27,094 bases of DNA from a virus, in the IMG/VR virus record IMGVR_UViG_3300006754_003350, positions 1 to 27,094 of that record; one strand, given 5' to 3'. This document shows positions 2,055-26,825 of this stretch, one piece after another; the first letter of the stretch is position 1; every line of letters starts with the position of its first letter. The notes beneath the pieces are model-generated. The model did no database searches. It was not told the origin of the DNA and was given only the letters and a program-made list of their open reading frames with translations. The translations under genes and the position numbers were made by a program.

Positions 2055-2316
2055 AGTAACTATTCCCCTCGTTTACATGCGTCCTACTGGTTAGGTAGTA
2101 CCGCTTTTCTACTTCAATGATGACCGGGTCTGTCCCGATGTTTCTCAATACCTTATAGGCGTCTACGACCGCGTTGTCTACAACTTTATTCAAGTCTGGC
2201 AAAATTACTTGAGTGCCAGCGGGCAGGTAAAAGGGTCCGAGTACAGGGTGAACATAGTTCAAGTCTCGCACTAGCGTTCCGCGCCTCTTCTTGGATTTCC
2301 TTTTACCCCAGCCCAT
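2017..2316 (-). CDS. Small basic protein of unknown function, 99 aa
   Basis: The ATG at 2316 overlaps the stop of the sigma-like gene (TAATG), with AGGGA 7 nt upstream. The N-terminus is very basic (WGKRKSKKRRG), and the rest (LPAGTQVILPDLNKVVDNAVVD) is strand and helix with no known motif. It overlaps the helicase start by 38 nt, so translation is probably coupled across three genes. The basic start suggests RNA or DNA contact, or an RNA polymerase partner. Function is unknown. Confidence 0.75.
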   Translation of the reverse strand: MGWGKRKSKKRRGTLVRDLNYVHPVLGPFYLPAGTQVILPDLNKVVDNAVVDAYKVLRNIGTDPVIIEVEKRYYLTSRTHVNEGNSYYGGNTSKFRRNR

Positions 2317-2804
2317 TACTTGTTCCCTTTCTCAAGTCGCTTGATGTGGCGCTTGATGCGTTGCTGCTTTGATTGTCCGCTTACGCCGAGTGCCTCGCGT
2401 GTCTCGCTGGATGAAAGTCCCAGGGCTTGGGCCATGAGGGCCTCCTGCACGATTAACGGTGCCCGTTCCATCAGAAGGCTCATCTCGGCCTTGGACTCAA
2501 CAACCTCTTGACCCATGTACATCTCGTCAAGGATGTCCCAGTTCTCTACGTATTGAGTGTTCGATAGTGGTTTGATTGCAGCGCGCCTAGTGTACCGGTC
2601 CCGGATCTTCATGGTGCGATACCATGCCCAGGTGCTGAATGAGCCCTTGCTTGGGTCATACTTCGCCCAGTGTGTCAGAACGTCCGCGATCACGTCGCCA
2701 GTGTAGTCTTCTAACTGGTTCTGTGGACCACGCCAATTCTTCGCACATAGCTTCTGCAGTGTGTTGTATTGGTCTATTGTCATCTCATGTTGTTTTGCCG
2801 CCAT
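2316..2804 (-). CDS. Sigma70-family-like factor encoded by the phage
   Basis: A 162-aa protein that reads like a minimal sigma factor. Residues about 14-75 (DYTGDVIADVLTHWAKYDPSKG, then FSTWAWYRTMKIRDRYTRR) fit region 2, with acidic and aromatic residues followed by the arginine-rich helix. Residues about 110-158 (IVQEALMAQALGLSSSETREAL, then GVSGQSKQQRIKRHIKRL) fit the helix-turn-helix of region 4. The linker is short. It could direct host RNA polymerase to phage promoters, perhaps the GGGGTATAAC elements. Direct recognition is not shown. ATG 2804 has GGAG 9 nt upstream. The 74 nt upstream of this gene (2805-2878) show no promoter, so it depends on the FmdB promoter. The next gene overlaps its stop (TAATG). 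Confidence 0.75.
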   Translation of the reverse strand: MAAKQHEMTIDQYNTLQKLCAKNWRGPQNQLEDYTGDVIADVLTHWAKYDPSKGSFSTWAWYRTMKIRDRYTRRAAIKPLSNTQYVENWDILDEMYMGQEVVESKAEMSLLMERAPLIVQEALMAQALGLSSSETREALGVSGQSKQQRIKRHIKRLEKGNK

Positions 2805-3085: not shown

Positions 3086-3114
3086 ATTATACACGCCCCT
3101 AAGGGCTATGTCAA
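3086..3114 (-). promoter_or_regulatory. Perfect consensus promoter for the zinc-ribbon, sigma-like and helicase operon
   Basis: TTGACA (3114-3109), a 17-nt spacer and TATAAT (3091-3086), 21 nt before ATG 3064. The spacer holds GCCC and GGGC around a TTAG centre, an inverted repeat like those in the Sak4 and SSB promoters. Confidence 0.9.
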
Positions 3115-6194: not shown

Positions 6195-6204
6195 GTTATA
6201 CCCC
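6195..6204 (-). promoter_or_regulatory. Element CGGGGTATAAC before the resolvase gene
   Basis: The minus strand reads GGGGTATAAC, 16 nt before ATG 6178 and just after the terminator. No -35 consensus is seen. This is the clearest copy of the late-type element in the replication region. Confidence 0.5.
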
Positions 6205-6212
6205 GAAGACAG

Positions 6213-6921: not shown

Positions 6922-6950
6922 GTTATAGCCCCCGTGAAGGGGGCTGTCAA
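6922..6950 (-). promoter_or_regulatory. Consensus promoter for the SSB-like gene with a perfect operator-like repeat
   Basis: TTGACA (6950-6945), a 17-nt spacer and TATAAC (6927-6922). The spacer and its edges hold the perfect repeat AGCCCCC, TTCAC, GGGGGCT, which overlaps both boxes. It is not followed by a T run, so it is more likely a protein-binding site than a terminator. Confidence 0.85.
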
Positions 6951-9093: not shown

Positions 9094-9149
9094 GTTATTT
9101 CCTCCTAGTTGGCTCCAACCTAGCCAGCAGGTTTCTCCCTGTCAATAAC

Positions 9150-9178: not shown

Positions 9179-9211
9179 AGTGGACGGGCTCAGGCGGACA
9201 GAATCTGTCCG
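9161..9211 (-). terminator. Tandem hairpins and intrinsic terminator ending the structural block
   Basis: Just after the hub stop, CGGACAG and CTGTCCG form a perfect 7-bp hairpin with a 3-nt loop (9211-9195). A second stem, CCCGTC and GACGGG with a 6-nt loop (9188-9171), is followed at once by six T residues (9170-9165) and more T-rich DNA. The second is a textbook intrinsic terminator in the minus direction. Confidence 0.9.
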
Positions 9212-9212
9212 A

Positions 9213-11177: not shown

Positions 11178-14100
11178 TTAGACTACCTCCTCGATTGTTA
11201 TCCCAAGGTCTCCAGCAAGTCTCCACTTGCCGTTTGCATCCTGATACCATCCCTCTGATTCAAGGGACAATCCGGACTTGACAACACCGAGTATAGTCAT
11301 TTCAGAAGTGTTCGCCATTAAAAAAGCGAGGGGTTTCTCAGAATACCCACACAGTCCGCGAACCATGGACCTGAATGACTCCCGCTTGCGGTCCACATCT
11401 CCCACGAATCTGCCCGCAACGGATCTCCTTACTGGACCCTTCAGGAATGACCACTCAATTCCAGAGTATGTGCTGATTTCTTCAACCTGGGGGTCGTCGT
11501 TCTCGGAGATGGACCAATCTAACGGCACGTTGCCTGGATTGAATACCGGGCCAGCCACGAGCGTCCCAATCTGGAAATACCCCAGGACTGCATTCTGTGC
11601 AGGAACCCTGACTCTGAAGAACTCGTAAGACTCCACATCCGAATAAACCGATGACATGGAAGACCCGAACACAACAACCCGATCCCCGGCAGAGACTGCA
11701 CCAGGACTTGATACGCTTAGACTGTCGTCAGTAGGGTGACTCAATACCTCGTAAACCTCTCCTGCTGCGGACCCGTCCACCACAACCACCCACCTGCCCT
11801 TGTGCTCACCCTGGGTCATGCCATGGCCGGAGCTAAGTGTGATCCGGTTGCCGGACTTAGCGGACACCGTCATGTCGCCGGTTATGTCTGCCGACAAGTT
11901 GTGTGTTGCTGCTATTGATGAGAAGCCGCTAGATGATGAGTACTCCACGATGGCGGTTCTGAAGTTGGTGTTAAACAGCGCGATTCCGCCGTGAGTTGAA
12001 ACGTGCCCGGATGCCTCGTGAGACATCGCTAGAGACTGCTCTGTCGTGCCAGTCGAGCGCCAAGCTATCCGTGGAGACCTCTCCAGGGCGTTCTCCTTCT
12101 GGAAGTGTGTCCTGGTATTAAGTTCGAAGATGTCGCCCTCGTACGCGCCAGCCCCCCTGAAGTCCACCGATATACCGCTATGGACGTACACAGGGTTTGC
12201 CGACGTTCTCTTGCCGAAGACTTCCATTTCGACGCCATTTAATGACGAAGAGCCCAGCATTGACGGAAGGTTGTCGCCCTGCGCCGTGCCCCACGCTTCT
12301 GCTATGACGCCAAACTCTGAAAGCGCCAGCTTGACCTCTGACCCGAACTCGAATGAGTCCTCTGCATTATTCCCGCCAAGGGGTCCAATAACTCCGTCGA
12401 TGGGAAGAGAACCGTATATTTCCTCACCGTCATCCCCTGCAGCCAGTACGCCGGAAGTCTCCCAGGAGGAATGCTCCCCGACGTCAGATAGGCACCTGTG
12501 CGAGATTCTGCAATTAAGGTCGCCATCAACCGACACTATGATTTGATAGTATTTGCTGTCGTCCACCGTTCCATGTGTGTACGAGTCTACGTATGCTGAA
12601 GTCCCTGTGTCCCACGTCTTGAATACAATTCCGTTGGTAGAATCAACGAACACCCGAAACTTCCATCCGTCAGACGTTACCGCGTTTGTGCCTGCGGCTT
12701 CCGCGTAGTATGACACTGGCGTTTTGCTTGGCTTTACCGTGAAGCCTCCACAGAACCCATTCTTGTATCCGAAGGCATTCCCGAGACCCTCGTGTGAGGT
12801 GAATTTGTATCTTCTTGTGTTTACGGTGCTGGGAAAAATTCTAAGGGATCCATACTGCTGAGCGTCAAGTGTCTCTGCCGCTATGCCAGATGGCGTCCAC
12901 GCCTGACCTGCGCCTGCATTCGTTGAGTAGCTGGTCGGAGCCCCCATCGTTGATGACCAGTAAGCGATGGATAGGGGGTTGAGTGCAGACGAGTCCCTTG
13001 AGTCCAGCCCGTTGGTGATTGGGTGGGTTGTCCACCCGCCAAGAGAGAATTTGGATGCCATTACGCAGTCAGAAGTGCTTGATGGATCTATGTGAGAGAA
13101 GTGGACATCAAGTCTTGCGCCAACTGACAGCATCCTCATGTGAGACATGGAGCAGAACTGCATTCCGGACTGAATCGCCCCACCGTCAGCGAGGGAGGTG
13201 TCTTCGTACTTGTCTCCAATGGTTGTGGCCCTGACGCTGAAGTCTGGGTTGTAGTCGATGAACCCCATCACGGAGGTTTCTTTTGTGGATTTCTTGGAGT
13301 AGAACACTGCCCCAAGGAGAAGACCGTTGTCGTGCCATGCGGCTGCTACGTTCTGTGGCTGCTGGTCTACAGACAGAGTTTCCGCTGCACCCAGACCCAT
13401 TACCGGAACCAGGGCGCTACTACCTACTGACTTGGAAACAGCGAAGAAGTAGTCAGTGCCAGTAATGGTTACCTCGTAGCAATAGGCATAATAGAATGTT
13501 CCGGAGTTGTCGTCCATTCCGACCAAGTCGTGACACGCCTCGTCATTTAACCTTACTGAGGAGGAAACAACCGTTGGACCCGTGTCGACTCCGCCCGGAA
13601 TCGCGCCAGTTCCCTCGATTCTACGGCTCCAGGACCCGCCGTTCGTCACACTTGTGCAGGATATGACGGCCCCCGACTGGTCCAGCCATACGGCCTTGAG
13701 CGTCGATCCGGATGCCGCAAGCCTGAGCGACGTTACTCCAAGAGCGTCCTGACCCGACGTGATGTCAGACGCGATCTTCACAAATGAAGACTCACCCTTG
13801 GTCATCTTGTGTACATTCATCTCGTGAAGTAGCTCTGTTGAGAGGTCATGGTTCTCTCTCCAGTGATGCGAGGTTAGCACGAACAGGTCGCCAGTACCAT
13901 TGGCGGCTATCCCGAACTCAATCACTTGGTCGTACGCATCGTCAACAGCGCCACCCACTGGGAACTCTAGCTGAATCGTGTCCACAAGGGACTCGTCAGA
14001 GTAGACAGCGGACCCCTGTGGCATCTTGTAGACCTTAACCCGCAAGTTCGTTACGTCAGTCGCGTCAGCAACGGCATAGTAAGCCTCTCCGAGCACTCTG

Positions 14101-15754: not shown

Positions 15755-15765
15755 GTTATACCCCT
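15755..15765 (-). promoter_or_regulatory. Late-type element AGGGGTATAAC before the 1515-aa gene
   Basis: The minus strand reads AGGGGTATAAC, 29 nt before ATG 15725 and after the tape measure stop. No -35 consensus is seen at 17 nt. It would serve both the 1515-aa gene and the adjoining hub gene. Confidence 0.6.
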
Positions 15766-15784
15766 GTGGGACGTTTCTAACGAC

Positions 15785-18700
15785 TTAGCTTCTTCCCCAG
15801 GGATTGTTCCCAGGGGCGCGTATTCCGGCCCTCTTACCAGCCGTTTTTCTAACCATCCTCGACACCCCGGTGGCCCGCCCATCGGCGTTGGCTCCAACGA
15901 CTGCGGAGTCTATCACCGAACCGTCCACAACAGACTGTACAATTACGGTTCCCATTCTTGAACTGTTACTGTAGTTCGAGGAGGGGGAGGTGGGTCCTCC
16001 ACTTGAAGCCTGTCCTGGCCTATTCTCATGCGCAGGAACAACGCGCTCTCCCTTGTGCAGCGTTACGCCCTTCATGTTCCGGGGTACGTACGAAATTCCC
16101 GAATAGTAGTTTCCGTCCTTTCCCTTCTTCTTTCCGCCCTTGGGGTGCTCTGCCTTGAGTGCCCTGAGTGCAGCATCCCTTTCTTCCTTGGTGATTTTTC
16201 CGGCCCTGTACGCGTCTTTGATCTCTCTTTTCTTCTCCCTGTATTCCTTGCCTCTGCCGCCGAATATACCGGCCAGAGCATCAGCAATAGCCTTTGCAAT
16301 GGCCTTCACGAATTCCCAGATAATCTTTGGAAGCTCCTTGATGATCGCCCAGACCAATCGAGGAAGCTCCTTGATGACCGCACCAACGATCTGCGGGATT
16401 CCTCTGGCCAGGGCCATCACAATGGCTGGGAAGTTCTTGATGAACGCATCCACGATTACAGGAATAGCCTCAACCAGCTTGTTGATTAGTATAGGCAACT
16501 GGTGAGCGATCTGTTCCATAATGTATGGGAGCGCCTGGATAACCGCGTCAATGTAGCCCATGATCTGGTCGACCTTGTCCGTCACAACGCTCTTGGCAGC
16601 CTCTTCAGCAGACCCACCCTCTTCCATCAACGTCTGCGTTTCACCAGCCATAGCGAAGATACTTCCAACGCTTGCGAGGTTCATTATGTCCGTTGCGATC
16701 TTTCCGATCTCGTCTATGACCTCAGTGCCGAAGTTGACAGCTTGACCAAACGTCTGCATGAGTTCGCCAGACATCTTGCCAACTGATTTCAGCGGACCCA
16801 TCACAAGAGACGAGATTCCCTTGGCGAGTCCAGCGATAGCTTTTCCGGCTAGGTCAACGGCACCCTTCAGGATGGTTGTTCCAAGGCCGAACTCTTTGAC
16901 GTCTGCTGCGAACTTGGCTAACTGAGGGAACTGGCTGGCCATGGCGTTCCCAATGGACTTACCCAAATTCAGGCCGCCGCCCTCCTTGAGTTCTTTGCGA
17001 TTCAGACCACGCAGTTCCTTCTTAGCGGACTTGACTCCAGCCTTGTCTCCACTCTCCTTGGCCATTTTCAGCTTAAGCTCAAGTTGCTCCCTCAACTCCT
17101 TGGTTGTTTTTTTCTCGCTTTCCACTACTTCCAGCGCAGCAGCCCTGCGCCTCTCCAGTAGCTTTAGGATGCCCTCCAGAAGCTCTGTCTCGCTTCCATA
17201 CCGCTCGACCAGCGCTGCTGTCTCATCGTCGAATCTTGCGTTTATGATAGCCTTGCGCTTTTCCTTGCCCTCTTCGAGAAGGTCGTTCTCCATGTCTCGA
17301 TGCGATCTGGCAGCGCTCAAGCGCAATTCCCTCAACTTCTCAATGTCGGCAGCAGCCTTTTTAGCGGCAACTTCATCCCTTACGTCACGGTCGTCGCTAA
17401 TTTTCTTGTTTGCTAACCCCCATGCCTCCAGAAGAGCCATTTTCTCCTCTGCGGTTTCAAGCTCCTTCATTCTTGCGGCGAATGTAAGGTTGCTTATCTT
17501 GGTCTCAAGCTCGAACCTTTCCTGGCTGTTCTTAGTGGAATCTTTCCTGGCCTGAAGAATCTCAAGCTCCAACTCCTTCACCTTGCTGACCCTCTCGACA
17601 GCGACACCACCACCGCCACCACCCGAATCGCCGCCAGCGCCCTCTGAGTCCTTAACAGAGTCCTCTGCGTCTCTCGCGGCCTCAGCCTTCAACTTTTCAA
17701 ATTCCGAATGCGCACTAGCGCCAGACTGGTCTCTTCCTGCTATTCCCGCGCCCTGCAACTGAGCACTGTTCGCCTTGACGCCATCAAGCCCCACGGCATC
17801 CCCGGCAGCGCCGATGACGTTGTTGATCTCGTTAAGTGCTGCAGCGGAATCTCCTCCACCGAACACGAACTTAAACAAGGAGGTTCCGGCGATCTTCTTC
17901 CCGACTTTGGATACCTCTTGCGCGACTTCCTTGATCTTCCGTATAGTTCCGCCGAGCCACTTGTTGATCAACTTCGAGAAGAACGCCGCTATGAGTGACA
18001 TAACTCCGCCAACCTTGCCGCTGCCCCCGAAACGCTTGGCTATAAGTCCGGACAAATACGTGATAATCTTACCTATAGATTGTAGTGCCTTGCTCGCCAG
18101 TGCCAAGTTCCAATGTATGAACTTGGTGAACAGGTTTGCCACTACAGCAGACAATATCTTTATTAGACCGTTGATGAAGATTAAACTCCGCTGTATCGGG
18201 CCAGTTACTCTACTCCACGTTGTCCACACGTCTCCAATGAGCGCTATCGCCCCAGCAATAGCCAGACCGATCCCGATCAGGGCGTCAGCCCATATGTCTG
18301 CGGCGTCCTTAGCGTCAACCGCAGGGCCCGTCCATGCCGCAAACGCGGTCCTGAATGCTGCCTCAAGTACGCCGAACCGATCCATAAAGCTCTCGTAGAA
18401 CTCGTCCAGGAATGTCCTTACAAAGTTTATGGCTCCACCAAGGCCAGAATTAGAGTCTTTGCCGACGATAAGCTCAAACAGACGAATCATTAGAGCGTTG
18501 AACTTTGAACCAATCTTGAGCATTGAGCCCGTTACAGAGTTCATCATGTCGCTCTGTATTTTGGCAGCCTTGCCTTGTGAGTCAGCGAACTCTTCAGCCC
18601 TCGTTTTCAATTCCGGGAATTTCTTTGCAAGACTGACTAGGTTGCCCTCGTACTGTGCCAGACCAAGTGCGGACGGAGCGAACCGTGCCCCGAATACATC

Positions 18701-19555
18701 AATGTAGTCTCCTGTTTCCGCGCCAGCCTTCTTCATTCTAAGGACTGCCTCTTCCATGTTCTCAACGCCCTTTCCGGGTGTTATGTCTTCAAAGGTCAGG
18801 CCAAGATCTTTAAGTGCGGCTTCTGCCTTGGGCGTTTCCTTAGCTAGGGCACTCAGGCCCATTCTCATGCCTGTTCCCGCGATTGATCCCTCAATACCAA
18901 TGTCGGCAAGTTTTGATAACGTGGTAAATACCTGCTCAACAGACTGGCCAAACTGGTTAGATATGGGGCCAGCGTACACCATCGCTGCAGATAACGATTC
19001 AAAGTTCAACATGGATTTCGTCAGCGCTACTGCCATCAGGTCAGCCACTTCAGACGCCTGTGTGGCCTCCATATTGAACTGCCGAAGCATCTTGGACACG
19101 AACTCCGCAGACTGGCCCAGTCCAGCCCCTCCGACTGTAGCAACAGCAAGAACCGCTTCCGTTGCAGCAGCGATCTCGTGAGCTTTGAATCCAGCCTTTG
19201 ACATGGCCTCAAAGGCATCCGTAACCTGTGACGCTGTGTATTCCGTGTCGGACGCTAGGTCCAGCGCCAAGGAAGACAGCATCTTCATGTCTTCGCCGGT
19301 TCCGCCGAGGAGGGCCTTTACTCTGACCATCTTGTGCTCGAATTCGGATCCGGCCTTTGCTATGGCCCCGAAGCCGACGGCTATGGCGCCGAGGCCCAGG
19401 CTCGCAGTCCCTGCCGCCGCGCCAAACCCCGCGATCACTCGCTTCATGTTGGCCATTTTCTTGGTGGCCGTATCAGCCTTCCTGTCGAACTGAGCCGTGT
19501 CCATCATCATCCGGACAACTAAGCCACTCGCTTTTCCAGCTTTACCAAATGCCAT
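15785..19555 (-). CDS. Tape measure protein
   Basis: A 1256-aa protein with the TP901-type tape-measure domain in its first third: GSEFEHKMVRVKALLGGTGEDM, LASDTEYTASQVTDAFEAM, SKAGFKAHEIAAATEAVL and GIEGSIAGTGMRMGLSAL. A hydrophobic stretch near 420-445 (IGIGLAIAGAIALIG) may insert into the host membrane during DNA ejection. A Gly/Ser linker near 640-650 leads to long coiled coil (about 655-850), then seven 11-residue repeats (1009-1085) and a basic tail. It sets tail length and forms the core around which the tube assembles; at roughly 1.5 angstrom per residue the tail would be near 190 nm. ATG 19555 follows GGAG. No lysozyme or peptidase motif was seen. Confidence 0.95.
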   Translation of the reverse strand: MAFGKAGKASGLVVRMMMDTAQFDRKADTATKKMANMKRVIAGFGAAAGTASLGLGAIAVGFGAIAKAGSEFEHKMVRVKALLGGTGEDMKMLSSLALDLASDTEYTASQVTDAFEAMSKAGFKAHEIAAATEAVLAVATVGGAGLGQSAEFVSKMLRQFNMEATQASEVADLMAVALTKSMLNFESLSAAMVYAGPISNQFGQSVEQVFTTLSKLADIGIEGSIAGTGMRMGLSALAKETPKAEAALKDLGLTFEDITPGKGVENMEEAVLRMKKAGAETGDYIDVFGARFAPSALGLAQYEGNLVSLAKKFPELKTRAEEFADSQGKAAKIQSDMMNSVTGSMLKIGSKFNALMIRLFELIVGKDSNSGLGGAINFVRTFLDEFYESFMDRFGVLEAAFRTAFAAWTGPAVDAKDAADIWADALIGIGLAIAGAIALIGDVWTTWSRVTGPIQRSLIFINGLIKILSAVVANLFTKFIHWNLALASKALQSIGKIITYLSGLIAKRFGGSGKVGGVMSLIAAFFSKLINKWLGGTIRKIKEVAQEVSKVGKKIAGTSLFKFVFGGGDSAAALNEINNVIGAAGDAVGLDGVKANSAQLQGAGIAGRDQSGASAHSEFEKLKAEAARDAEDSVKDSEGAGGDSGGGGGGVAVERVSKVKELELEILQARKDSTKNSQERFELETKISNLTFAARMKELETAEEKMALLEAWGLANKKISDDRDVRDEVAAKKAAADIEKLRELRLSAARSHRDMENDLLEEGKEKRKAIINARFDDETAALVERYGSETELLEGILKLLERRRAAALEVVESEKKTTKELREQLELKLKMAKESGDKAGVKSAKKELRGLNRKELKEGGGLNLGKSIGNAMASQFPQLAKFAADVKEFGLGTTILKGAVDLAGKAIAGLAKGISSLVMGPLKSVGKMSGELMQTFGQAVNFGTEVIDEIGKIATDIMNLASVGSIFAMAGETQTLMEEGGSAEEAAKSVVTDKVDQIMGYIDAVIQALPYIMEQIAHQLPILINKLVEAIPVIVDAFIKNFPAIVMALARGIPQIVGAVIKELPRLVWAIIKELPKIIWEFVKAIAKAIADALAGIFGGRGKEYREKKREIKDAYRAGKITKEERDAALRALKAEHPKGGKKKGKDGNYYSGISYVPRNMKGVTLHKGERVVPAHENRPGQASSGGPTSPSSNYSNSSRMGTVIVQSVVDGSVIDSAVVGANADGRATGVSRMVRKTAGKRAGIRAPGNNPWGRS
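16301..16531 (-). repeat. Seven tandem 11-residue repeats in the tape measure
   Basis: Residues 1009-1085 consist of seven consecutive 11-residue units, each beginning Leu, Ile or Phe then Pro, with hydrophobic residues at fixed places: LPYIMEQIAHQ, LPILINKLVEA, IPVIVDAFIKN, FPAIVMALARG, IPQIVGAVIKE, LPRLVWAIIKE and LPKIIWEFVKA. Eleven-residue periodicity is known in other tape measures and fits the helical repeat of the tail interior. Confidence 0.9.
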
Positions 19556-19579
19556 TCTAAACTCCAGGGATTCAGACCA

Positions 19580-19590
19580 GTTATACCCCT
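19580..19590 (-). promoter_or_regulatory. Late-type element AGGGGTATAAC before the tape measure gene
   Basis: The minus strand reads AGGGGTATAAC, 24 nt before ATG 19555. No -35 consensus is seen at 17 nt. Confidence 0.6.
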
Positions 19591-19594
19591 AACG

Positions 19595-19936
19595 CTACAT
19601 AACGGGTATACCCATTGACGCCAATCCAAGCAGCTTGTTCTTCTCTGCCGTGACCCTGTCCTCTTTAGAGGTAGCCTTCTTCTTGGCTGCCGACTTTGCA
19701 GGGCCGTCAGATGTGGCTGGCTTATATTCTGCGCCGAATGCTCCCATGAGGGGCTCTATCAGCGAGTTAAGGAATTCGACCTTGACCTTCACTATGCACA
19801 TCGCGGACAGTTGGATCTGATCAAACGTCATATCCAACACGTCATCCAGCGACATACCGGAGCCCATAAGGACCCCGATAGCAGAGTGTATGGCTTCCAG
19901 GCTACTCGCCCCCGACGAGGGGGAGTCACTGCCTAC
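19595..19936 (-). CDS. C-terminal half of the frameshifted tail chaperone (lambda T-like extension)
   Basis: This -1 frame continues from the G gene to a stop at 19595 and would add about 113 residues, giving a fused chaperone of about 259 aa, a common size for GT proteins. It includes VLDMTFDQIQLSAMCIVKVKVEFLNSL and a Lys-rich tail (SAAKKKATSKEDRVTAEKNK). An internal ATG at 19867 could start a free 90-aa product, but it has only a GGGG-type site upstream and no promoter element, so I prefer the fusion. In known systems the T part contacts the tape measure protein. The gene directly upstream of the tape measure supports this. Confidence 0.75.
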   Translation of the reverse strand, partial: VGSDSPSSGASSLEAIHSAIGVLMGSGMSLDDVLDMTFDQIQLSAMCIVKVKVEFLNSLIEPLMGAFGAEYKPATSDGPAKSAAKKKATSKEDRVTAEKNKLLGLASMGIPVM

Positions 19937-19942
19937 TTGCCC
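19904..19942 (-). promoter_or_regulatory. Programmed -1 frameshift signal between the chaperone frames
   Basis: At the end of the G frame the minus strand reads ATG GGC AAG TAG. The heptamer GGGCAAG (19942-19936) is a weak slip site, since only some codon positions re-pair after a -1 shift. Nine nt further, ACTC plus four C pair with GGGG and GAGT around a short loop (19926-19904), with one bulge, making a strong stem at the usual distance for a stimulatory structure. There is no T run after it, so it is not a terminator. The -1 frame has no stop from upstream of the slip site to 19595. Confidence 0.65.
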
Positions 19943-20373
19943 ATTAGATTCCCGGCCTTCGTCAGCGTCTTGGCGAAGGCTACCGCTAAAGGGCCGAATG
20001 CCTTGATGAGTTCTTCGATGTCGAAGTTGTCAGAGGGTGAGCCTTCAAAGTTCTTGGCGAGTGCTGGATAGCACGCGTCGAATGTTTCGTCGATCAAGTC
20101 TAGCAGTCGGTCATCACTTAGTACGCCCATGGCTGCACGAAGCATTGATTCCATGCTAGTGAACGCCTCTTCGTCAACATCGATTTCTTGCAGTAAGTCC
20201 GCCGCCTTCTCGACCATGCGTAGCGCTTTGATTTGTCGCCGTGCTGACAACTTGCTTGGCAACTTGTACTTGTTTCCTTCCAGGTCGTGGATCGCCAGGT
20301 CTGACGGCACTAGGTCTTCAAGTAACTGGACGAAGTCCACTGCTTCTGATTCCTCAACGGTATTCTCTTCCAT
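19933..20373 (-). CDS. Tail assembly chaperone, short form (lambda G-like)
   Basis: The start is ATG 20373, with GGAG 6 nt upstream, giving 146 aa; a longer frame from a TTG at 20421 runs through the promoter-like element and is not credible. The protein is acidic and helical (VQLLEDLVPSDLAIHDLEGN, then a basic KLPSKLSARRQIKALRMVEKA stretch and ELIKAFGPLAVAFAKTLTKAG). No family motif is diagnostic, but it lies between major tail and tape measure, and the -1 frame is open across its stop codon into the next frame. That is the signature of the G/GT pair, which binds the tape measure and recruits tail-tube subunits. It should be made in excess over the fused form. Confidence 0.85.
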   Translation of the reverse strand: MEENTVEESEAVDFVQLLEDLVPSDLAIHDLEGNKYKLPSKLSARRQIKALRMVEKAADLLQEIDVDEEAFTSMESMLRAAMGVLSDDRLLDLIDETFDACYPALAKNFEGSPSDNFDIEELIKAFGPLAVAFAKTLTKAGNLMGK

Positions 20374-20401
20374 AATACACTCCATTGTTATTGTGTACCC
20401 A

Positions 20402-20412
20402 GTTATACCCTT
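20402..20412 (-). promoter_or_regulatory. Late-type element AAGGGTATAAC before the chaperone genes
   Basis: The minus strand reads AAGGGTATAAC just after the major-tail terminator and 28 nt before ATG 20373. It would restart transcription for the chaperones. The -35 region falls inside the terminator stem and has no consensus. Confidence 0.55.
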
Positions 20413-20419
20413 GGGAAAC

Positions 20420-20450
20420 AAAAAGGGGCACCCGAAGGCACCCCTTTAAA
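20420..20450 (-). terminator. Intrinsic terminator after the major tail gene
   Basis: On the minus strand AAAGGGGTGCC, a TTCG tetraloop and GGTGCCCCTTT form an 11-bp stem that includes two G-U wobbles, followed by a T run. The loop is the stable C(TTCG)G type. The wobble pairs become mismatches on the plus strand, so it works best in the minus direction. Confidence 0.88.
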
Positions 20451-20468
20451 TGTGTTAATCTCTAAGGA

Positions 20469-21020
20469 CTAAGCGATTTGTCGGTGAATTTGCATCAACT
20501 GGCTTGTGTAAGCCAATGAGCCGCCAGCCCAGTCAACGCCAGCGCGAAGAGCCTTGAAGCTATACTCGAAAGAGTGCTCGTCTGCCGTGAAAGGAAGTGT
20601 AAGGCCACCGTTAGAAGAAGCCTTCCAGACGTTTACAAGCAGTGTGTCGCCAGTAACAGCCATCTGGTGCTCAACTTGAAGGGCAAGCTGAGTTACAAGT
20701 GGATCGCCACCAAACGCGAAGTGCTCTTCAGTGGAGGTCGTCGTGTGGACGCCAGCGCCGATAGCTTTAGCGAAGTTGTCGAAGTTCCACTCGATTCCGG
20801 TAACGCTAAGTTGAACGCCCTGTGCTTGTGTGAAAACAAACACTGGAATCTTTGGGTTTCCTTGAGAGATGTCTCGCTTTTCAGCAGTAATTTCGATGTT
20901 GATACCGTCTTCAGTGATAGCGCCAACGTCAACGGTTGGGGTAGCACCAGCGGCACCTAATCGGAAAATACCGGGACCGAAAGCGAAGTTATTTTCGGTA
21001 TAAGTTGGAATGTTAGCCAT
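20469..21020 (-). CDS. Major tail (tube) protein
   Basis: A 183-aa beta-rich protein with no membrane segment. It starts MANIPTYTENNFAFGPGIFRLG, then has TVDVGAITEDGINIEIT, VQLSVTGIEWNFDNFAKAIG and a C-terminal FEYSFKAL. Order and size fit tail-tube proteins of long-tailed phages: a small beta-sandwich that stacks as rings around the tape measure. The position is decisive: it follows the terminator-like gene and precedes two frameshift-linked chaperone frames and the tape measure. ATG 21020 follows GGAG at 6 nt. A strong intrinsic terminator lies 20 nt after its stop, which would let it be made in excess over the chaperones. No promoter was found directly upstream. Confidence 0.85.
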   Translation of the reverse strand: MANIPTYTENNFAFGPGIFRLGAAGATPTVDVGAITEDGINIEITAEKRDISQGNPKIPVFVFTQAQGVQLSVTGIEWNFDNFAKAIGAGVHTTTSTEEHFAFGGDPLVTQLALQVEHQMAVTGDTLLVNVWKASSNGGLTLPFTADEHSFEYSFKALRAGVDWAGGSLAYTSQLMQIHRQIA

Positions 21021-21045
21021 TTTAATCTCCAGATCTGTGAGAGTG

Positions 21046-21252
21046 TTATTGCTTGACCAGAGTCCATAGACCCATAGTCTTGTCGCAAGAATTACAAGTT
21101 AAGTTAATCTTCTCTTTCCTGTAACCGTCTGGAGTGTCTGCGCTGCGAGTGGATAATCCCTCTCCAGCATAGTCCAGAGCGCAACCGCACTCACAGCGTA
21201 CGGCCATGTTGAGATTGCGCAGGTTTAAAGGTCGAGAATCAAAAGTGTTCAT
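21046..21252 (-). CDS. Small zinc-ribbon-like protein, 68 aa
   Basis: ATG 21252 starts 1 nt after the previous stop, with AGGAA 9 nt before it. A second Met at residue 16 has no ribosome binding site. The protein has Cys at 20, 22, 24, 53 and 56 (CECGC, then CNSC), which reads as a small zinc-binding ribbon or knuckle. No enzymatic motif is seen. The gene lies between the terminator-like and major tail genes and shares their transcript, so a role in tail assembly is possible. Function is unknown. Confidence 0.75.
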   Translation of the reverse strand: MNTFDSRPLNLRNLNMAVRCECGCALDYAGEGLSTRSADTPDGYRKEKINLTCNSCDKTMGLWTLVKQ

Positions 21253-21253
21253 A

Positions 21254-22981
21254 TTACAAAGTTCCTACATAGGTGAACAGTCCACGGATAAAATACCCGT
21301 CTACCTGTTGGTTATACCCGTCATGGGGCCGTTCTGTTTCACGTATCAGCCCTTTAGGTGAAAATCCATCCCGGTGTATCCTGGTATGTTGCAGTTTCGT
21401 CCTTACTAATTCGTACATTTGGGCAGCGTCAGAATAACCGTTCCTGGAGTACACGTAAACTGCCACATTAACGGTTTGAACTCCACCATGCCATCTGGCG
21501 TTACCGGAGATGGCCTCGACTATAATCCGAGGCATCTTGACTGATGATCCGTCGTCTCCGGGCTTCACTTGCTCGTGAGTTCCGACAATGCGTCCGTCTA
21601 CGTGGTCGACCAATTCGTCAATCTCGAATAGCTCTCTAACGATCAGTGACTTCAGCCCAGGGATCCCCTGCTTTCCGGCCTCGTCAAGAGTGGGCATTGA
21701 TTCCAGCACATCTTGCTTGGCGATGTTTGATAGGTCCGCCACCTGCACGTACAGGTGTGAGAGGTCGTCCGTAGTAGCAGCCGAGATTGACTTGTACTTG
21801 AACGACTCGCCTTCCAGCATGAAGTCGGCAATCATTGGCCCGTCGTTGTTGTTGTCTGTAGATCCAGAGTCTCCGGTGTAGTGGACAAGCGGGATTCTTG
21901 CGCCAGACGTCTTGTGGAAATTCAGGTCTATCCCTGCTGACGCCGAGTCGGCTTGTTCTGACAGGGCCGAGACAATAGGCGCTGGCACTGCGAGGGTTTG
22001 CTCAACCCTTGGCATGCGTATGGTTCCGCGCTGAGGGGTAAAGTGCTGCACGCTCATGGCTGGATTGCTTGCCGTGTATGCCGAGATCTCGAATGAACCT
22101 GCGGCATTCACCGCGTTTGTGGCTGCAATATTTGTCTGGACGCCCTGCATGGTTGACGCTAGACCATTTCCTGGCCGCACTATGGGTATTTGACTGTGCA
22201 GTCTTCCGTTGCTTGCTTCGCTGTACCAGGACAAGTGCATCATTGTGTGATCGAAGTCTAGCGGCTTTGGATTGCCATCCCAGTCGATGATGGTGTGCTG
22301 CGTGTAGCTTAGTGGGTTCTCGAAGTCAGGAACAACATTAGTGTGGGTGAAATCCTGCCTGTAAACTTCCCACTCAGACCCCCACTCGATAACCTGAAGC
22401 GTTGTGGTCATGGCTGCATTCAGCACGAAGCCGAAGTTGGAGAACTTTTTAACCTCAAGGTCGGTGTTGCTTGTAAGGATCTCACGAGTAATGTTAGAAC
22501 CCAGGGCGGAACCCCCTCCAGCACCTGCTCCCCACATTCCTCCGACTACCCAGCACTGCTTGAAGTCAGAGACCCCGGACACGGTCTCGGAGTACGTGAC
22601 GATCCCTGTGGATGTTGTTGCTGGATGATTGATGACCTTGGTGTCGCAAAGCCTGAAGCCATTAGGGTCCGACCCATCCAGGCACTCCGTGATTGTCATG
22701 TGCACGCGTGGCGCTCTGGATGTGTTGGACTGGTTCTCGATAACTAGAAAGTTGCCGCCAGACGATCCGAGATCACCAGAACCATATGGGTCTGCAATAA
22801 CCCGGAAGCTCGCCCGGCTTGGCTGATAGCCTTCGTTATTATCGGGATCAGGCGCACAATGGAATACCACAAAGTAATTGCTAGACAGCGTTTGATCAAG
22901 CGGGACAACATGAAACCTCCTCAACTCGTCAACAACGTGATGCAGCTTAATTTGTGTTACTCTAAATAGGTTTCTGCTCAT
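21254..22981 (-). CDS. Tail terminator-like protein with a large N-terminal module shared with the distal tail protein
   Basis: This 575-aa protein has two parts. Residues 1 to about 420 match the start of the 1515-aa tail protein, with shared blocks FRVT, DPYGSGDL versus DPFGTGDL, HMTITECL versus HMTIIECL, VSGV, and VIEWGSEWEV versus VIEWGTNWDV. Residues about 425-575 (LKSLIVRELFEIDELVD, then NVAVYVYSRNGYSDAAQMYELVRTKL and a final strand GYFIRGLFTYVGTL) fit a small tail terminator fold of the lambda gpU or DUF3168 kind, normally a stand-alone protein of about 130-150 aa. It lies between the gp10-like and major tail genes, exactly the terminator position. ATG 22981 has GGAG about 7 nt upstream. 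The domain fusion is seen in sequence; the terminator role is inferred from pattern and position. Confidence 0.7.
   Translation of the reverse strand: MSRNLFRVTQIKLHHVVDELRRFHVVPLDQTLSSNYFVVFHCAPDPDNNEGYQPSRASFRVIADPYGSGDLGSSGGNFLVIENQSNTSRAPRVHMTITECLDGSDPNGFRLCDTKVINHPATTSTGIVTYSETVSGVSDFKQCWVVGGMWGAGAGGGSALGSNITREILTSNTDLEVKKFSNFGFVLNAAMTTTLQVIEWGSEWEVYRQDFTHTNVVPDFENPLSYTQHTIIDWDGNPKPLDFDHTMMHLSWYSEASNGRLHSQIPIVRPGNGLASTMQGVQTNIAATNAVNAAGSFEISAYTASNPAMSVQHFTPQRGTIRMPRVEQTLAVPAPIVSALSEQADSASAGIDLNFHKTSGARIPLVHYTGDSGSTDNNNDGPMIADFMLEGESFKYKSISAATTDDLSHLYVQVADLSNIAKQDVLESMPTLDEAGKQGIPGLKSLIVRELFEIDELVDHVDGRIVGTHEQVKPGDDGSSVKMPRIIVEAISGNARWHGGVQTVNVAVYVYSRNGYSDAAQMYELVRTKLQHTRIHRDGFSPKGLIRETERPHDGYNQQVDGYFIRGLFTYVGTL
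21311..21320 (-). promoter_or_regulatory. Possible late-type element CGGGTATAAC inside the 575-aa gene
   Basis: The minus strand reads GGGTATAAC within the last codons of the 575-aa gene, 58 nt before the 68-aa gene. It could serve the 68-aa and major tail genes, which have no other element, but it also encodes Gly-Tyr-Asn and may be chance. Confidence 0.3.
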
Positions 22982-23006
22982 CAGTCGCTCCGATTAGATC
23001 AGGAGT

Positions 23007-23017
23007 GTTATACCCCT
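23007..23017 (-). promoter_or_regulatory. Late-type element AGGGGTATAAC before the 575-aa gene
   Basis: The minus strand reads AGGGGTATAAC, 25 nt before the ATG at 22981. The hexamer at 17-nt spacing is TGGTCA, a 4 of 6 match to TTGACA, so a weak -35 is possible. Confidence 0.6.
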
Positions 23018-23020
23018 GGA

Positions 23021-23686
23021 TCATTTAAATGACCACCTGACATCCAACTTTCCGAACCTCCCTTTCGGCCCTCGCTCCCTGATTGTGTCAACCATGGCCT
23101 TCTTCATCTTTTTAACGGTCCCTGGCTCGTTCAATGTCTCGTTGATAACGTCTCGGCCCCGAAGAACCCTAGTTCCGTCTATCACATACTTGGCGTATGG
23201 GGCCACCGCCTCATCAAACTTGACCTCATACGTCGAACCGTGCTGGTTGCCCCTGCTCACAACTCTTAAAGCGTCAAGCATCCTACCATCTTGATCGTGA
23301 ATCTCGTAGGGCTTCATTCCGCCAATTCTTGTCGACCCCGCTCCATGCCTCTTAGCGTAAGGGTGATCCATTCTCTGCAGGTCGCTTTTCGAGTGCTTTG
23401 TGCTAGACATGTTCTCCCGAACTGCCTGATGCAGGACCTCCGCTGCTGCACGCATCGCCTGTCTGCCCGCCTGCTTCACCTTTCTAATGTCCCTTTTTGT
23501 TGATCTGAGCGTCAATCGGTACGAGTCCATGTCAAGAACCAGCTTGACGTCTCCCATTCCTTTATCGGACGGACTGCCCCCCGAAGTCAGGCCTCGAACC
23601 GCGCTCCTTCCGAACCTAGTAGCGAACTTCTTGCTCGCCTGACTTGTGATCAGCCTTCCTGCTGCAGCTATAAGTGGGATGGCCAT
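23021..23686 (-). CDS. HK97 gp10-like neck / tail-completion protein
   Basis: The 221-aa protein is basic. It has a central helix (KVKQAGRQAMRAAAEVLHQAVRENM, about residues 69-93), a Gly/His-rich loop, then VAPYAKYVIDGTRVLRGRDVINETL near 160-185. This order (long helix, loop, xxPYAxxVxxGT, short arginine turn, final helix) is that of HK97 gp10-like family proteins, which sit between head completion protein and tail terminator. Here it lies just upstream of the terminator-like gene, the expected place. ATG 23686 has GGAG 9 nt upstream and its own GGGATATAAC element. The first 45 residues are a basic extension not explained by the family. Confidence 0.75.
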   Translation of the reverse strand: MAIPLIAAAGRLITSQASKKFATRFGRSAVRGLTSGGSPSDKGMGDVKLVLDMDSYRLTLRSTKRDIRKVKQAGRQAMRAAAEVLHQAVRENMSSTKHSKSDLQRMDHPYAKRHGAGSTRIGGMKPYEIHDQDGRMLDALRVVSRGNQHGSTYEVKFDEAVAPYAKYVIDGTRVLRGRDVINETLNEPGTVKKMKKAMVDTIRERGPKGRFGKLDVRWSFK

Positions 23687-23712
23687 AAGGGGGTACTCCG
23701 AGTAACTGCTCG

Positions 23713-23723
23713 GTTATATCCCT
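23713..23723 (-). promoter_or_regulatory. Late-type element AGGGATATAAC before the gp10-like gene
   Basis: The minus strand reads AGGGATATAAC, a one-base variant of the recurring element. It lies 26 nt before the ATG at 23686 and overlaps the glycosyltransferase stop codon. No matching -35 was found at 16-18 nt. Confidence 0.55.
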
Positions 23724-25527
23724 ATTCGAAGGAAGGCACCTCAAAAGAAATCCCTGGCAGAGGCAGGCCCTTCTCCCGCAGTCCCTTTGGAGTGCCGAGC
23801 AGGGGTCGTTCTGGAGCCAGCTTTGTCAGGACTTCGTGAAGCGCCTTTGTTGATTCGTGTGAACCGTGACCCTGCGAGATCCGGTCAAGGACATTCCCAT
23901 AATAACGCTTAGCTTCTCTAAGGTGATATGATCCAAGTTCTCGGTGTGGCAGGTACGATCCCCCGGAGCACTTGACCCCGTTTTGGTAGCACTCGACGGC
24001 CTCATCAATGGAACCATCGTTCTCACACTGCAAGCCAAGCGCAACCCACGCCTGCACGCAGTCCTTGTCATGCTTCAACTCTTCCAGTAGCAGGGCCGTG
24101 TACTTGGCCAGCTTGGCGTCAATCTGTTCATCGTCCATGGCTTGGCCTGTATTGACCATGATGAAAGGAGCATACTGGCACTTAGGGTGGATGCCCGCTC
24201 CACGGATGTTGTTCAAGGAATCTCCAAAACCCTCGTGGATCCTGCCATTCATCCGCATGGTTCCGTTTCCGTCCAGCCTAGTCATGCGCAGGGTCTCGGA
24301 CTCGCTTGATTGACCGTCCCGCTGAATGTTCTCGAACTTGACCATCCATCCCCAACAGTTAGTAATGTCTGCCATTCTGCGAATGTCACGAGCCATTTGC
24401 TGCCAGTCTTCACATACCTCGTCAGGGTCGAAGAATAACGCCCAAGCGCATCCCTTGGACTCAAGGTAATCGATTCCCGCGTTACGGGCTTCAGCCAAGT
24501 GCTTGTCTAGCGGCTTGTAGATCAACTCGGCCTTGTATAACTCAACAACCTTAAGCATCTCGTCGCTGATCTTATCTTTATCGCCCGTCCATACGACGGC
24601 TATATGATCAACGATACTGTAAAGCTCGTCAAAGAGCCTCACATAGTCCTCTGGGCTTTCTTTCTCGTATGCGAGAACGTGGAGCCCAATTCCGTTCTTA
24701 GACACCACCTTGCCCATCTGTAGGCCCTCGTCGTCCAATATATACGTGTGATTCACTCCCGGCTGCTCCTGTCTTGCGCGCATAAAGGCTCTGACCCGGT
24801 CGTCCTGGTTTACAAGGCCGTAAGAGCGTGTACGAACAGCGCATTCTTTAGCAAGCGCTTCGCCCTCGATTTCCGCGTTGCGGTACATCTTGATGCTTCC
24901 CTGCTGACCGCGATACTTGTTGTTGTCTCCCCACGGAGCGTCAACTCGATATAGGCTCGTGCTATCCCAGTGTGTGTACCAAGACATTCCGTAGCCCATT
25001 ACGTTGGGGTTAGGGTGGGTCATCAGTCGCTCGATGTGTTCTCGCCCGATTCGGTCTTCGAGAACGTCGTCCTGATCCAGATACATGATCCAGTCAGGCT
25101 CGGTCTCTTTCGCCACTTCCATGGCGCCAGCCATCTCTAGCTCAGGGGAGAAGTCGCCCTGGTACAATTTGGCCTCTGCACGCTTAGCGATGTTGCCCTT
25201 GGTCTTCCCTGCGATAGAAGCAACCCACCCGGCAGTAGCCTTTCGGATCGCTTCAATCTCACCCTTAGCGCAAACTTGGAACCAAGTCAGATCGTCCCTG
25301 GACCAGTTGGATTCATTCTCCTTCCAGTCGCTGGCCTCTGATGCCGACAGAGGATTGTCCACCAAGAGGATCGCGATAGCGTCTGCTACCGTACATGATT
25401 TCTGGATGCTAGACTTTAGCGTGAAGATGTCGTGCGCAGACATCAGTCTGGCCTTGTACAGAACTGTGAGCGTCTGCTCTGCCTGCGTAGACTCCTGGTT
25501 CTTAGAATAAAGTGATAGCTTAGACAT
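23722..25527 (-). CDS. Two-domain family-2-like glycosyltransferase with C-terminal TPR-like region
   Basis: The 601-aa protein looks like two GT-A glycosyltransferase units in tandem. Unit 1 (about residues 18-260) has WIMYLDQDDV at 146-155, a DXD-type motif for metal and nucleotide-sugar. Unit 2 (about 272-460) has the GT2 hallmarks ARNAGI (347-352), FFDPDE (365-370) and GRIHE (428-432), the pattern found in TPR-linked glycosyltransferases. Residues 485-550 read like one or two TPR helix pairs (AWVALGLQCENDGSIDEAVE). There is no signal peptide or membrane segment, so it acts in the cytoplasm. ATG 25527 follows GAGGAGG and a consensus promoter. It sits between neck genes, so a virion protein is a plausible acceptor; host glycans are an alternative. 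Sugar and acceptor cannot be told from sequence. Confidence 0.85.
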   Translation of the reverse strand: MSKLSLYSKNQESTQAEQTLTVLYKARLMSAHDIFTLKSSIQKSCTVADAIAILLVDNPLSASEASDWKENESNWSRDDLTWFQVCAKGEIEAIRKATAGWVASIAGKTKGNIAKRAEAKLYQGDFSPELEMAGAMEVAKETEPDWIMYLDQDDVLEDRIGREHIERLMTHPNPNVMGYGMSWYTHWDSTSLYRVDAPWGDNNKYRGQQGSIKMYRNAEIEGEALAKECAVRTRSYGLVNQDDRVRAFMRARQEQPGVNHTYILDDEGLQMGKVVSKNGIGLHVLAYEKESPEDYVRLFDELYSIVDHIAVVWTGDKDKISDEMLKVVELYKAELIYKPLDKHLAEARNAGIDYLESKGCAWALFFDPDEVCEDWQQMARDIRRMADITNCWGWMVKFENIQRDGQSSESETLRMTRLDGNGTMRMNGRIHEGFGDSLNNIRGAGIHPKCQYAPFIMVNTGQAMDDEQIDAKLAKYTALLLEELKHDKDCVQAWVALGLQCENDGSIDEAVECYQNGVKCSGGSYLPHRELGSYHLREAKRYYGNVLDRISQGHGSHESTKALHEVLTKLAPERPLLGTPKGLREKGLPLPGISFEVPSFE

Positions 25528-25552
25528 TAGTCCTCCTCATTTGTTCAATAGG

Positions 25553-25581
25553 GTTATACCCCTACAGAGGAAGGTTGTCAA
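25553..25581 (-). promoter_or_regulatory. Consensus promoter for the glycosyltransferase
   Basis: TTGACA (25581-25576), a 17-nt spacer and TATAAC (25558-25553), with AGGG extending the GGGG motif directly before the -10 box. The ATG of the glycosyltransferase is 25 nt downstream. This is the only structural-region element that has both a perfect -35 and the GGGGTATAAC core. The flanks TAGGG and CCCTA around the -10 box also form an inverted repeat. Confidence 0.85.
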
Positions 25582-25583
25582 GC

Positions 25584-26222
25584 CTATTCCTGGCTTTCAG
25601 GGTCTCCGTGATCTCTCTTGACGCATACGACTTCCCAGTGGTGGAATCGTCTTCCCCCACGGTATATCTTGATCCCGGACACAAGCCACTCCTCGCCCGT
25701 ATCGTCATCGACTATAAAGTCTCCAACCAATGGAGTGAAGTCTGTGGTGTGCTGGATGGCGATCATGCAGCTAGAGTCAGCGCGTACGCCCAGCTTGACG
25801 GTGTTGACCTCTTGTTCTCCACGGTAGCTGATTGCTCCACGAGTGTTGGCAACAACTGTCGAGTCCAAGCCTATAACCGCTGACCCGTCAGAACCGGACA
25901 CTCTCAGGTCTATGGTTGCGCCAGAAATTCCAAGGTCACCCTGCACGCTCGTGATCTCTGCAAGCGTCTTGTCTCCAACGAACCAGCCATTTCTCTCAAC
26001 CAGTATATCTTCAGTCAACGGACTGCCAGCAGCGTCTATCCCGCTAACATGCAGAACGCCTGAACCAGAAACACCTGAAGCCTTCCCCTTGATAAAGGAA
26101 GGCACTGAAGGCGTGTAGCTAACTGGCTGAATCAGTCCAGTCAAGACGATGTCTGACGACGCAACGCTGGAGCCCTCCCTCTTGATTGTGAGATTGCTTG
26201 AGGCTAAGCTAAAGATCGACAT
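25584..26222 (-). CDS. Probable head-tail joining (neck) protein, 212 aa
   Basis: I place the start at ATG 26222, because GGAG lies 5 nt before it. A GTG at 26228 is in frame but has no room for a ribosome binding site. The protein is beta-rich, with no membrane segment. Its C-terminal part (GDFIVDDDTGEEWLVSGI, then a basic stretch and HHWEVVCVKR) resembles phage head-closure or stopper proteins, where a DDDTGEEW-like turn precedes two strands. The N-terminal half carries many Ser/Gly/Val repeats and is not recognised. It lies upstream of a gp10-like neck protein and the tail terminator, the usual place for a stopper. The family assignment is an inference from pattern and order. Confidence 0.5.
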   Translation of the reverse strand: MSIFSLASSNLTIKREGSSVASSDIVLTGLIQPVSYTPSVPSFIKGKASGVSGSGVLHVSGIDAAGSPLTEDILVERNGWFVGDKTLAEITSVQGDLGISGATIDLRVSGSDGSAVIGLDSTVVANTRGAISYRGEQEVNTVKLGVRADSSCMIAIQHTTDFTPLVGDFIVDDDTGEEWLVSGIKIYRGGRRFHHWEVVCVKRDHGDPESQE

Positions 26223-26246
26223 GGGCACTCCACTTGGTTCGAAGTG

Positions 26247-26257
26247 GTTATACCCCT
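26247..26257 (-). promoter_or_regulatory. Late-type element AGGGGTATAAC before the 212-aa gene
   Basis: The minus strand reads AGGGGTATAAC, 24 nt before the preferred ATG. No good -35 is seen at 17 nt; TTAAGC at 18 nt is the nearest candidate and overlaps the previous stop. Between the element and the start codon, CCACTT and AAGTGG form a perfect 6-bp hairpin that touches the GGAG ribosome binding site. Confidence 0.6.
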
Positions 26258-26272: not shown

Positions 26273-26773
26273 TTAACGGCTGCGAGTCTTATTGAAGTGC
26301 TCAACCAGCGAATAACCAAACGGGTAGCACCTGTGTACCCTGCCACCATTGTACTCACACTTCTTTAGGTGAGCCATGAAGATGGCGAAATCATATGGGC
26401 ACTCGAAGATTACTTCGTTGGCCTGCTGCTCAGAGACCCAATGTCCGTTCGCGCTACGCTTGCGGAACAAAGTTCCCCCAGCACGGATTGCTTCGTGCTC
26501 TCTGACGGTCCCTTCAAGTATAGTGACGAACTCGATTCCGCCGTCAATCTCACCACTTGCGCCAGACTTGTTCTTGTACGACAAGCCCTCGCCACTGACG
26601 TGGAAGACGGCCTTCTCGTAATCAACTCCAGCCTCGGCCCTGTTGTAGAACAGCACTAAGGTCAGAGATTTGCTACGCTGCTGCAGTATGATGTTCGGAA
26701 CGAACGAGGAGTCCGTCATCTGGAACCCCATCTGAGTCGCCTTGTTTGTGATCCTAAATAGTTTGTCTGACAT
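26273..26773 (-). CDS. Unknown 166-aa protein of the structural region
   Basis: The ATG at 26773 is preceded by a good ribosome binding site (GGAGGAAAC then ATG) and by its own promoter. I do not recognise a family. The protein is soluble, with no signal peptide or membrane segment, and is rich in short beta-like stretches such as SLTLVLFYNR and EVIFECPYDFAIFMAHL. It opens with MSDKLFRIT, which resembles the openings of the 575-aa and 1515-aa tail proteins (NLFRVT and DTFRVT). The similarity fades after about 60 residues. Its place at the head of the neck-gene cluster suggests a virion or virion-assembly protein, but that is context only. Confidence 0.8.
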   Translation of the reverse strand: MSDKLFRITNKATQMGFQMTDSSFVPNIILQQRSKSLTLVLFYNRAEAGVDYEKAVFHVSGEGLSYKNKSGASGEIDGGIEFVTILEGTVREHEAIRAGGTLFRKRSANGHWVSEQQANEVIFECPYDFAIFMAHLKKCEYNGGRVHRCYPFGYSLVEHFNKTRSR

Positions 26774-26796: not shown

Positions 26797-26825
26797 GTTA
26801 TACACACTACGATCCGGACAGTCAA
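26797..26825 (-). promoter_or_regulatory. Sigma70-type promoter for the 166-aa gene
   Basis: On the minus strand TTGACT (26825-26820) is followed after exactly 17 nt by TATAAC (26802-26797). The start codon of the next gene is 23 nt further on. The GGGG that precedes the -10 box elsewhere in this region is replaced here by TGTG. Confidence 0.75.

Follow-up and report, generated by a model that had tools for sequence, protein, structure and literature searches.

Phage phiEco32 encodes a sigma factor, gp36, that serves one-element middle and late promoters with the consensus tAATGTAtA and a start 6-8 bp downstream (PMC8948821, PMC4331800), and the lack of a -35 element in these promoters has been attributed to the missing region 4 of gp36 (PMC8948821). 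Phage T4 reads its late promoters with gp55, together with gp33 and gp45 (PMC2988020), and the late promoters of phage 7-11 gp47 have the form GTAAtg-N16-aCTA (PMC8948821). SigB/SigF promoters follow the pattern GTTTAA-N15-GGGTAT (PMC9847131).

The window analyzed here is the whole of IMGVR_UViG_3300006754_003350, a 27,094-base IMG/VR virus fragment on which nearly every gene lies on the minus strand. The gene set marks a tailed phage: it includes a portal, a major head protein, a head-tail adaptor, a tail tape measure, and a neck protein, next to a replication module of primase-helicase, SSB-like, Sak4-like, exonuclease, and DEAD helicase proteins. The window is contained, with six differences over 27 kb, in a 59,283-base contig, IMGVR_UViG_3300025118_000014 (G001). 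A 39-kb contig, IMGVR_UViG_3300002242_000342 (G002), is a relative with 67% identity in the 601-aa protein and 72% in the portal. Further comparisons involved the remote relatives G003 (IMGVR_UViG_3300011013_000020; GC, 65%; primase-helicase 45% identical), G012 (IMGVR_UViG_3300034104_005580; GC, 70%), and three genomes tied to the window phage by the portal alone (G007, G010, and G011). A host search by portal found no relative among the 84,980 genomes scanned, and one by helicase returned remote homologues only (26-32% identity), spread across many phyla. Three minus-strand genes of the structural region (26273-26773, 21254-22981, and 11178-15725) encode proteins with similar starts (MSDKLFRITNKATQMGF, MSRNLFRVTQIKLHHV, and MAIQDTFRVTHVEYEV), which may represent a common N-terminal module with no family match.

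The putative transcription system of the window resembles that of phiEco32 in having a small phage sigma, several late promoters made of one element without a -35 box, a start 6-8 bp downstream, and early genes on host sigma-70 promoters. However, its element, AGGGGTATAAC, is entirely unlike tAATGTAtA and does not conform to that consensus, and the promoter copies per genome are far more numerous. The original prediction had likened the element to T4 late promoters, a comparison that holds for the mechanism: a -10-type TATA box stands alone before presumed late genes with no upstream element, and a small divergent sigma-70-family protein is encoded. It does not extend to the sequence: T4 has an 8-bp TATA box that lacks a G-tract (TATAAATA), a type not found here, whereas the present element joins a G-tract to TATAAC (GGGGTATAAC). 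Moreover, T4 needs a sliding clamp and a coactivator, neither of which is seen among the annotated genes here, and the protein of the window has a C-terminal HTH-like segment (low confidence). Phage 7-11 is similar in that a phage sigma reads the late promoters and host sigma-70 the early ones, but its promoters are bipartite with a -35-like part. SigB/SigF promoters share the GGGTAT core of the -10, yet no consistent GTTTAA element occurs here, and none occurs in G003 or G012. By analogy, the window system would work like those of phiEco32 gp36 and T4 gp55, with a new element whose sequence places it in neither group. A literature search for the literal string GGGGTATAAC returned nothing about phage promoters, as judged by title or abstract.

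Copies and position of the element

AGGGGTATAAC stands ahead of most particle-building genes and is very probably their on-switch. Exact copies lie at 15755, 19580, 23007, 25553, and 26247 on the minus strand, and one-mismatch copies at 6195 (C first), 20402 (AA), 21311 (AC), and 23713 (GGGA); every coordinate put forward in the original prediction thus holds the element or a one-mismatch form on the coding strand. A GGGGCTATAAC variant at 6922, ahead of an SSB-like gene and combined with TTGACA-N17, adds to that list. No exact copy of AGGGGTATAAC lies on the opposite strand of the window, and a reversed control pattern gave none either. The sites in the window are as follows.

26247..26257, minus strand: AGGGGTATAAC, predicted single-element promoter of gene 25584-26228, with a predicted start site at G 26240; orthologous copy GGGGATATAAC in G002 at 9424
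25553..25563, minus strand: AGGGGTATAAC with TTGACA at N17 (putative hybrid promoter), ahead of gene 23722-25527, with a predicted start at G 25546
23713..23723, minus strand: AGGGATATAAC, ahead of neck/tail-completion gene 23021-23686, with a predicted start at G 23706; G002 carries an identical core at 6885
23007..23017, minus strand: AGGGGTATAAC, ahead of gene 21254-22981 (575 aa), with a predicted start at G 23000; counterpart AGGGATATAAC in G002 at 6181
21311..21321, minus strand: ACGGGTATAAC, in the 3'-terminal part of gene 21254-22981 and 58 nt ahead of gene 21046-21252; a doubtful member of the family, with no ortholog among the G002 matches
20422..20447, minus strand: stem of an intrinsic terminator, immediately upstream of the 20402 putative promoter
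20402..20412, minus strand: AAGGGTATAAC, directly after that terminator; ATG of a 146-aa gene at 20373; counterpart in G002 at 3560 with identical terminator-motif order
19580..19590, minus strand: AGGGGTATAAC, before tape-measure gene 15785-19555; predicted +1 G at 19573; counterpart AGGGGTATAAT in G002 at 2726
15755..15765, minus strand: AGGGGTATAAC, ahead of gene 11178-15725 (1515 aa), with a predicted start at A 15748
6922..6931, minus strand: GGGCTATAAC with TTGACA at N17 (putative hybrid/early promoter), before SSB-like gene 6261-6866
6195..6205, minus strand: CGGGGTATAAC, right after a terminator and ahead of a 227-aa gene whose start is at 6178 (in frame over 5495-6178)

The end of TATAAC lies 24, 25, 26, 25, 28, 24, and 29 nt from the start codon at the seven near-identical copies, in agreement with the predicted spacing of 23-29 nt; the 26247 copy is also 18 nt from an alternative GTG start. 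The distance is 22 nt at 6195 and 58 nt at the intragenic 21311, and at most sites the element is 16-36 nt from the start. The 227-aa protein 5495-6178 (minus strand; MNVVGCDPATAGAVTMMKPDG...) has by eye the look of a RuvC-type resolvase, and its gene overlaps the next one and has a late-type promoter in front.

The motif is much more frequent than chance predicts, and its placement is specific to upstream regions. The window holds 16 matches with at most two mismatches; dinucleotide shuffles hold 3.99 +/- 1.65 (maximum, 9). In the held-out part of G001 outside the window, 9/15 matches fall 8-60 nt ahead of a called start (expected, 0.025; p ~1e-11), and in held-out G002 10/13 do (expected, 0.037; p ~1e-12). 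G001 beyond the window carries nine more upstream copies, and copies there precede the portal, prohead-side, tail-fibre-like, and possible lysin genes. De novo expectation maximization (EM) on upstream regions recovered the element independently from G001 beyond the window, from the window itself, and from G002; the motifs of the three gene sets (GGGGTAT, GGGTATAAC, and GGGATATAA) scored log-likelihood ratios (LLR) of 60.6, 85.4, and 93.2, with shuffled maxima of 44.8, 37.0, and 42.0, respectively.

Two places show copies in opposite orientations. At 18185-18241 of G001 (L005), AGGGTATAAC and, past the palindrome GGGGTTAGATATATCTACCCC, an inverted copy, CTATAACCCT, lie directly ahead of a tail-fibre-like gene, and a hairpin or operator is possible. 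In L013, divergent copies at 2173 (minus strand) and 2207 (plus strand), between a head/packaging gene and a rightward gene, overlap palindromic sequence.

Start-site signature and two promoter classes

Since TATAAC as a -10 hexamer would occupy -12 to -7, the expected start site is position 12, counting the first T of TATAAC as 0. Of 30 upstream sites, 28 have a purine there (G at 17 and A at 11; p 4e-7), with T or C just before it at 18, and no purine enrichment is found in this set at the neighboring positions 11 and 13. The signature recurs in G001 outside the window (10/10), in G002 (9/10), and in G003 (13/14), and is weaker at matches elsewhere in the genome (48/83 with at most two mismatches; Fisher p 2e-4). 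By this sequence signature, the element behaves as a promoter -10 box, with a predicted purine start at a fixed 7 nt past the hexamer. In addition, 6/29 sites have an intrinsic terminator 8-26 nt ahead of the motif, an arrangement absent from motif-less genes (0/64; p 6e-4). Orthologues in G001 and G002 retain the core GGGRTATAAC amid diverged flanks (neck, 576-aa, 213-aa, and 174-aa genes), whereas other orthologues (epimerase, 167-aa, and 185-aa genes) keep TTGAC and a -10 instead. Across 30 aligned sites, information is limited to A-GGGG-TATAAC and the +1 base, the G-tract being the most conserved part besides TATA.

From these features, we consider the element very likely to be a promoter of the -10 type. 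The notion that each gene or pair has its own promoter and a short leader, as originally predicted, finds support in the +1 purine, in the order terminator then motif, and in the conservation of the element. As for the term "late," the promoter part has good sequence support, and the timing is a reading of gene function, which is also how we assign genes as probably early or late throughout.

The absence of a -35 box from most sites was correctly predicted: among the copies originally listed, TTGACA-N17 occurs only at 25553. As a set, the sites lack TTGACA at the sigma-70 spacing of 16-18 nt, five or more of its six positions being matched at 3/30 sites; boxes matching at least four positions are not above composition-matched shuffles at the motif sites (p 0.19). 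Between G001 and G002, the element is conserved and the -35 box is not. A de novo search for a second upstream element reached an LLR of 19.7, versus a null maximum of 22.1. We rejected a classic -35 box as part of the element, since it is not enriched over shuffles.

A second promoter class consists of TTGAC or TGGAC, N17, and a -10 without a G-tract, and precedes small ORFs at 9-11 kb and 24 kb of G001, the epimerase gene, and the sigma operon described below. TTGAC-N17 promoters precede mainly small ORFs and DNA-metabolism genes, and the genes of this second class are of a type that tends to be expressed early. The two classes are largely separate, the -35-bearing promoters being mostly without a G-tract, and hybrid sites with TTGACA-N17 and GGGG occur at 25553, at 6922, and in G002 at 24251. 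In the window, one further site belongs to the second class.

26797..26825, minus strand: TTGACT-N17-TATAAC without a G-tract, before gene 26273-26773; putative early-type promoter

On the minus strand of G001 (L005) at 9087-10954, five consecutive small ORFs each lie behind a near-identical stretch, composed of TTCTTGACT or TCTGGACA, a GATC-containing palindromic spacer, and ACAAAGGAGAAC, which has the appearance of a duplicated early promoter cassette.

A candidate sigma factor and its relatives

The gene that could supply a reader for the element, and the promoter upstream of it, are located as follows.

2316..2804, minus strand: sigma-70-family protein of 162 aa, with region 2 at residues 21-72; candidate late sigma
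3086..3114, minus strand: perfect TTGACA (3114-3109)-N17-TATAAT (3091-3086), ahead of small gene 2879-3064, which the sigma gene follows

The product of 2316-2804 matches PF04542 (sigma-70 region 2) with 27.9 bits, above the Pfam cutoff of 24, and PHROG 1740 (RNA polymerase sigma factor) with an E value of 4.7e-7. In its AlphaFold model, region 2 has a pLDDT of ~90 and aligns to region 2 of sigma-E at 2.1-2.6 A over 67-72 columns. The top PDB structure matches of the model are nearly all sigma factors, mostly of the ECF type, with weak E values (best, 0.004). The C-terminal helices are modeled at low confidence, and a region 4 HTH scores under the cutoff (HTH_20, 14.4 bits), while a profile of the protein aligns with both halves of a sigma-H chain (E, 0.008). 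By the sequence and model of region 2, we assign the protein to the sigma-70 family. Single-protein and pair-profile scans for sigma relatives gave nothing beyond the three already known, and the 2316-2804 sequence has no match in the phage record collection, which includes cultured phages.

Homologues of this protein are encoded in G003 and G012; against PF04542 they score 23.6 and 20.9 bits, just under the 24-bit cutoff. In G003, the homologue lies within the corresponding module and the genome has its own repeated element, AGGGGTAGATC (GGGGTAGATC), with 7 exact copies versus 0.07 expected and 25 with one mismatch versus 2.8, mostly on the coding strand. In G012, the homologue is found by profile (E, 1e-29) and the AGGGGTA version is AGGGGTANNNC, with AGGGGTA 12 times on the coding strand versus 2 on the other. 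Because the gene caller is crude at 65-70% GC, these two genomes were retested by the criterion of a ribosome site plus start after the element, which 13/25 sites satisfy in G003 (p 5e-8) and 5/8 in G012 (p 0.005), a modest result from fewer sites. G007, G010, and G011 have no sigma homologue and no AGGGGTA excess. G002 has the motif and is a fragment without the replication region, where the sigma gene would lie.

AGGGGTA is thus kept in relatives of 52, 65, and 70% GC; the first six or seven bases of the element persist, and the remainder of the -10 tracks genome composition, which suggests a phage-borne reader. The co-occurrence of sigma and AGGGGTA also fits such a reader, in few genomes of common ancestry, and is confounded by descent in that the three genomes with both also have a common replication module, the controls being more distant. 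With slightly less than even confidence, we propose that a lineage of small two-part phage sigmas reads a contiguous G-tract in an extended -10 and places a separate late promoter before nearly every structural gene or pair. We hold equally tentatively that AGGGGTA is kept within this lineage while the rest drifts with composition (TATAAC, TAGATC, and TANNNC). If true, this would be a class of G-tract extended -10 elements not described for systems of the T4, phiEco32, or SPO1 type. The three divergent sigma/element pairs could reveal by what means a small sigma recognizes a G-rich extended -10 with no -35 present. In G003 (L033-L035), AGGGGTAGATC also precedes replication genes, e.g., at 23496, 30861, 28495, and 27606, so that the use of the element there is broader than late genes.

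Proposed scheme and competing explanations

On balance, we favor the reading that copies of AGGGGTATAAC are single-element late promoters for a phage-encoded sigma, and the 2316-2804 protein is, in our estimate, their probable reader. The host polymerase with its own sigma would read the TTGAC-N17 promoters, including that of the operon holding 2316-2804; the sigma gene could be switched on by the host enzyme because the small gene upstream has a perfect TTGACA-N17-TATAAT promoter. As the phage sigma accumulates, it would steer the host core polymerase, as in phiEco32, to the AGGGGTATAAC promoters ahead of the head, tail, and lysis genes and of some late DNA genes, with TATAAC acting as the -10 box and AGGGG, just upstream in the extended -10 position, standing in for the -35 contact. 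Starting at the purine 7 nt past the box would give leaders of ~18-30 nt holding only a ribosome-binding site, and each gene or pair would have its own transcription start. Tail modules need not then be one long transcript, since nearly every gene or pair here seems to be separately started. The scheme provides a testable sigma-promoter pair, from sequence alone, for a group of uncultured phages and, if confirmed, a compact orthogonal promoter system.

The element could instead be read by the main sigma of the host, accepting a G-rich extended -10 without a -35, with the phage sigma serving something else. TATAAC is near TATAAT, its spacing to the +1 purine is appropriate, and the hybrid sites would suit such a reader; we nevertheless find this unlikely, given that the two promoter classes are largely separate, that -35 matches at motif sites do not exceed those in shuffles, and that AGGGGTA is kept over the range of GC contents above while the -10 half changes. 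It appears less plausible still that the phage recruits an alternative sigma of its host, from the SigB/SigF group (GTTTAA-N12-17-GGGTAT). AGGGGTATAAC does include GGGTAT, the SigB -10 (PMC9847131), and GTTTAA-like hexamers occur at N11-17 in 14/22 terminator-free G001 and G002 sites, the top count of 60 anagrams (mean, 6.1). This excess is, however, post hoc, its spacing is loose (10-17 nt), the de novo search gave no second element, and GTTTAA is found at 0/14 sites in G003 and 0/6 in G012.

The original prediction entertained an RNA-processing or translation element as an alternative. Such a signal would act within a polycistronic late transcript, and the fixed strand, the short distance to start codons, and the proximity of a ribosome-binding site would fit it. 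We rejected it as very improbable because of the purine exactly 12 nt downstream, and not 11 or 13, and of the placement immediately after intrinsic terminators; the distance to the ribosome-binding site also varies (16-58 nt to the start). Sites for a phage transcription activator overlapping weak -10 boxes, for which the conservation of the G-tract might speak, have an equally slight probability, as the sites lack a second box and any inverted or tandem symmetry, and the G-tract is contiguous with the -10 in a fixed register, as direct sigma contact would give.

Directly upstream of the sigma gene, behind the strongest consensus promoter, 2879-3064 (minus strand) encodes a Cys-rich protein of 61 aa with CxxC pairs and, by eye, the look of an FmdB-type zinc ribbon, which might be a transcription cofactor.
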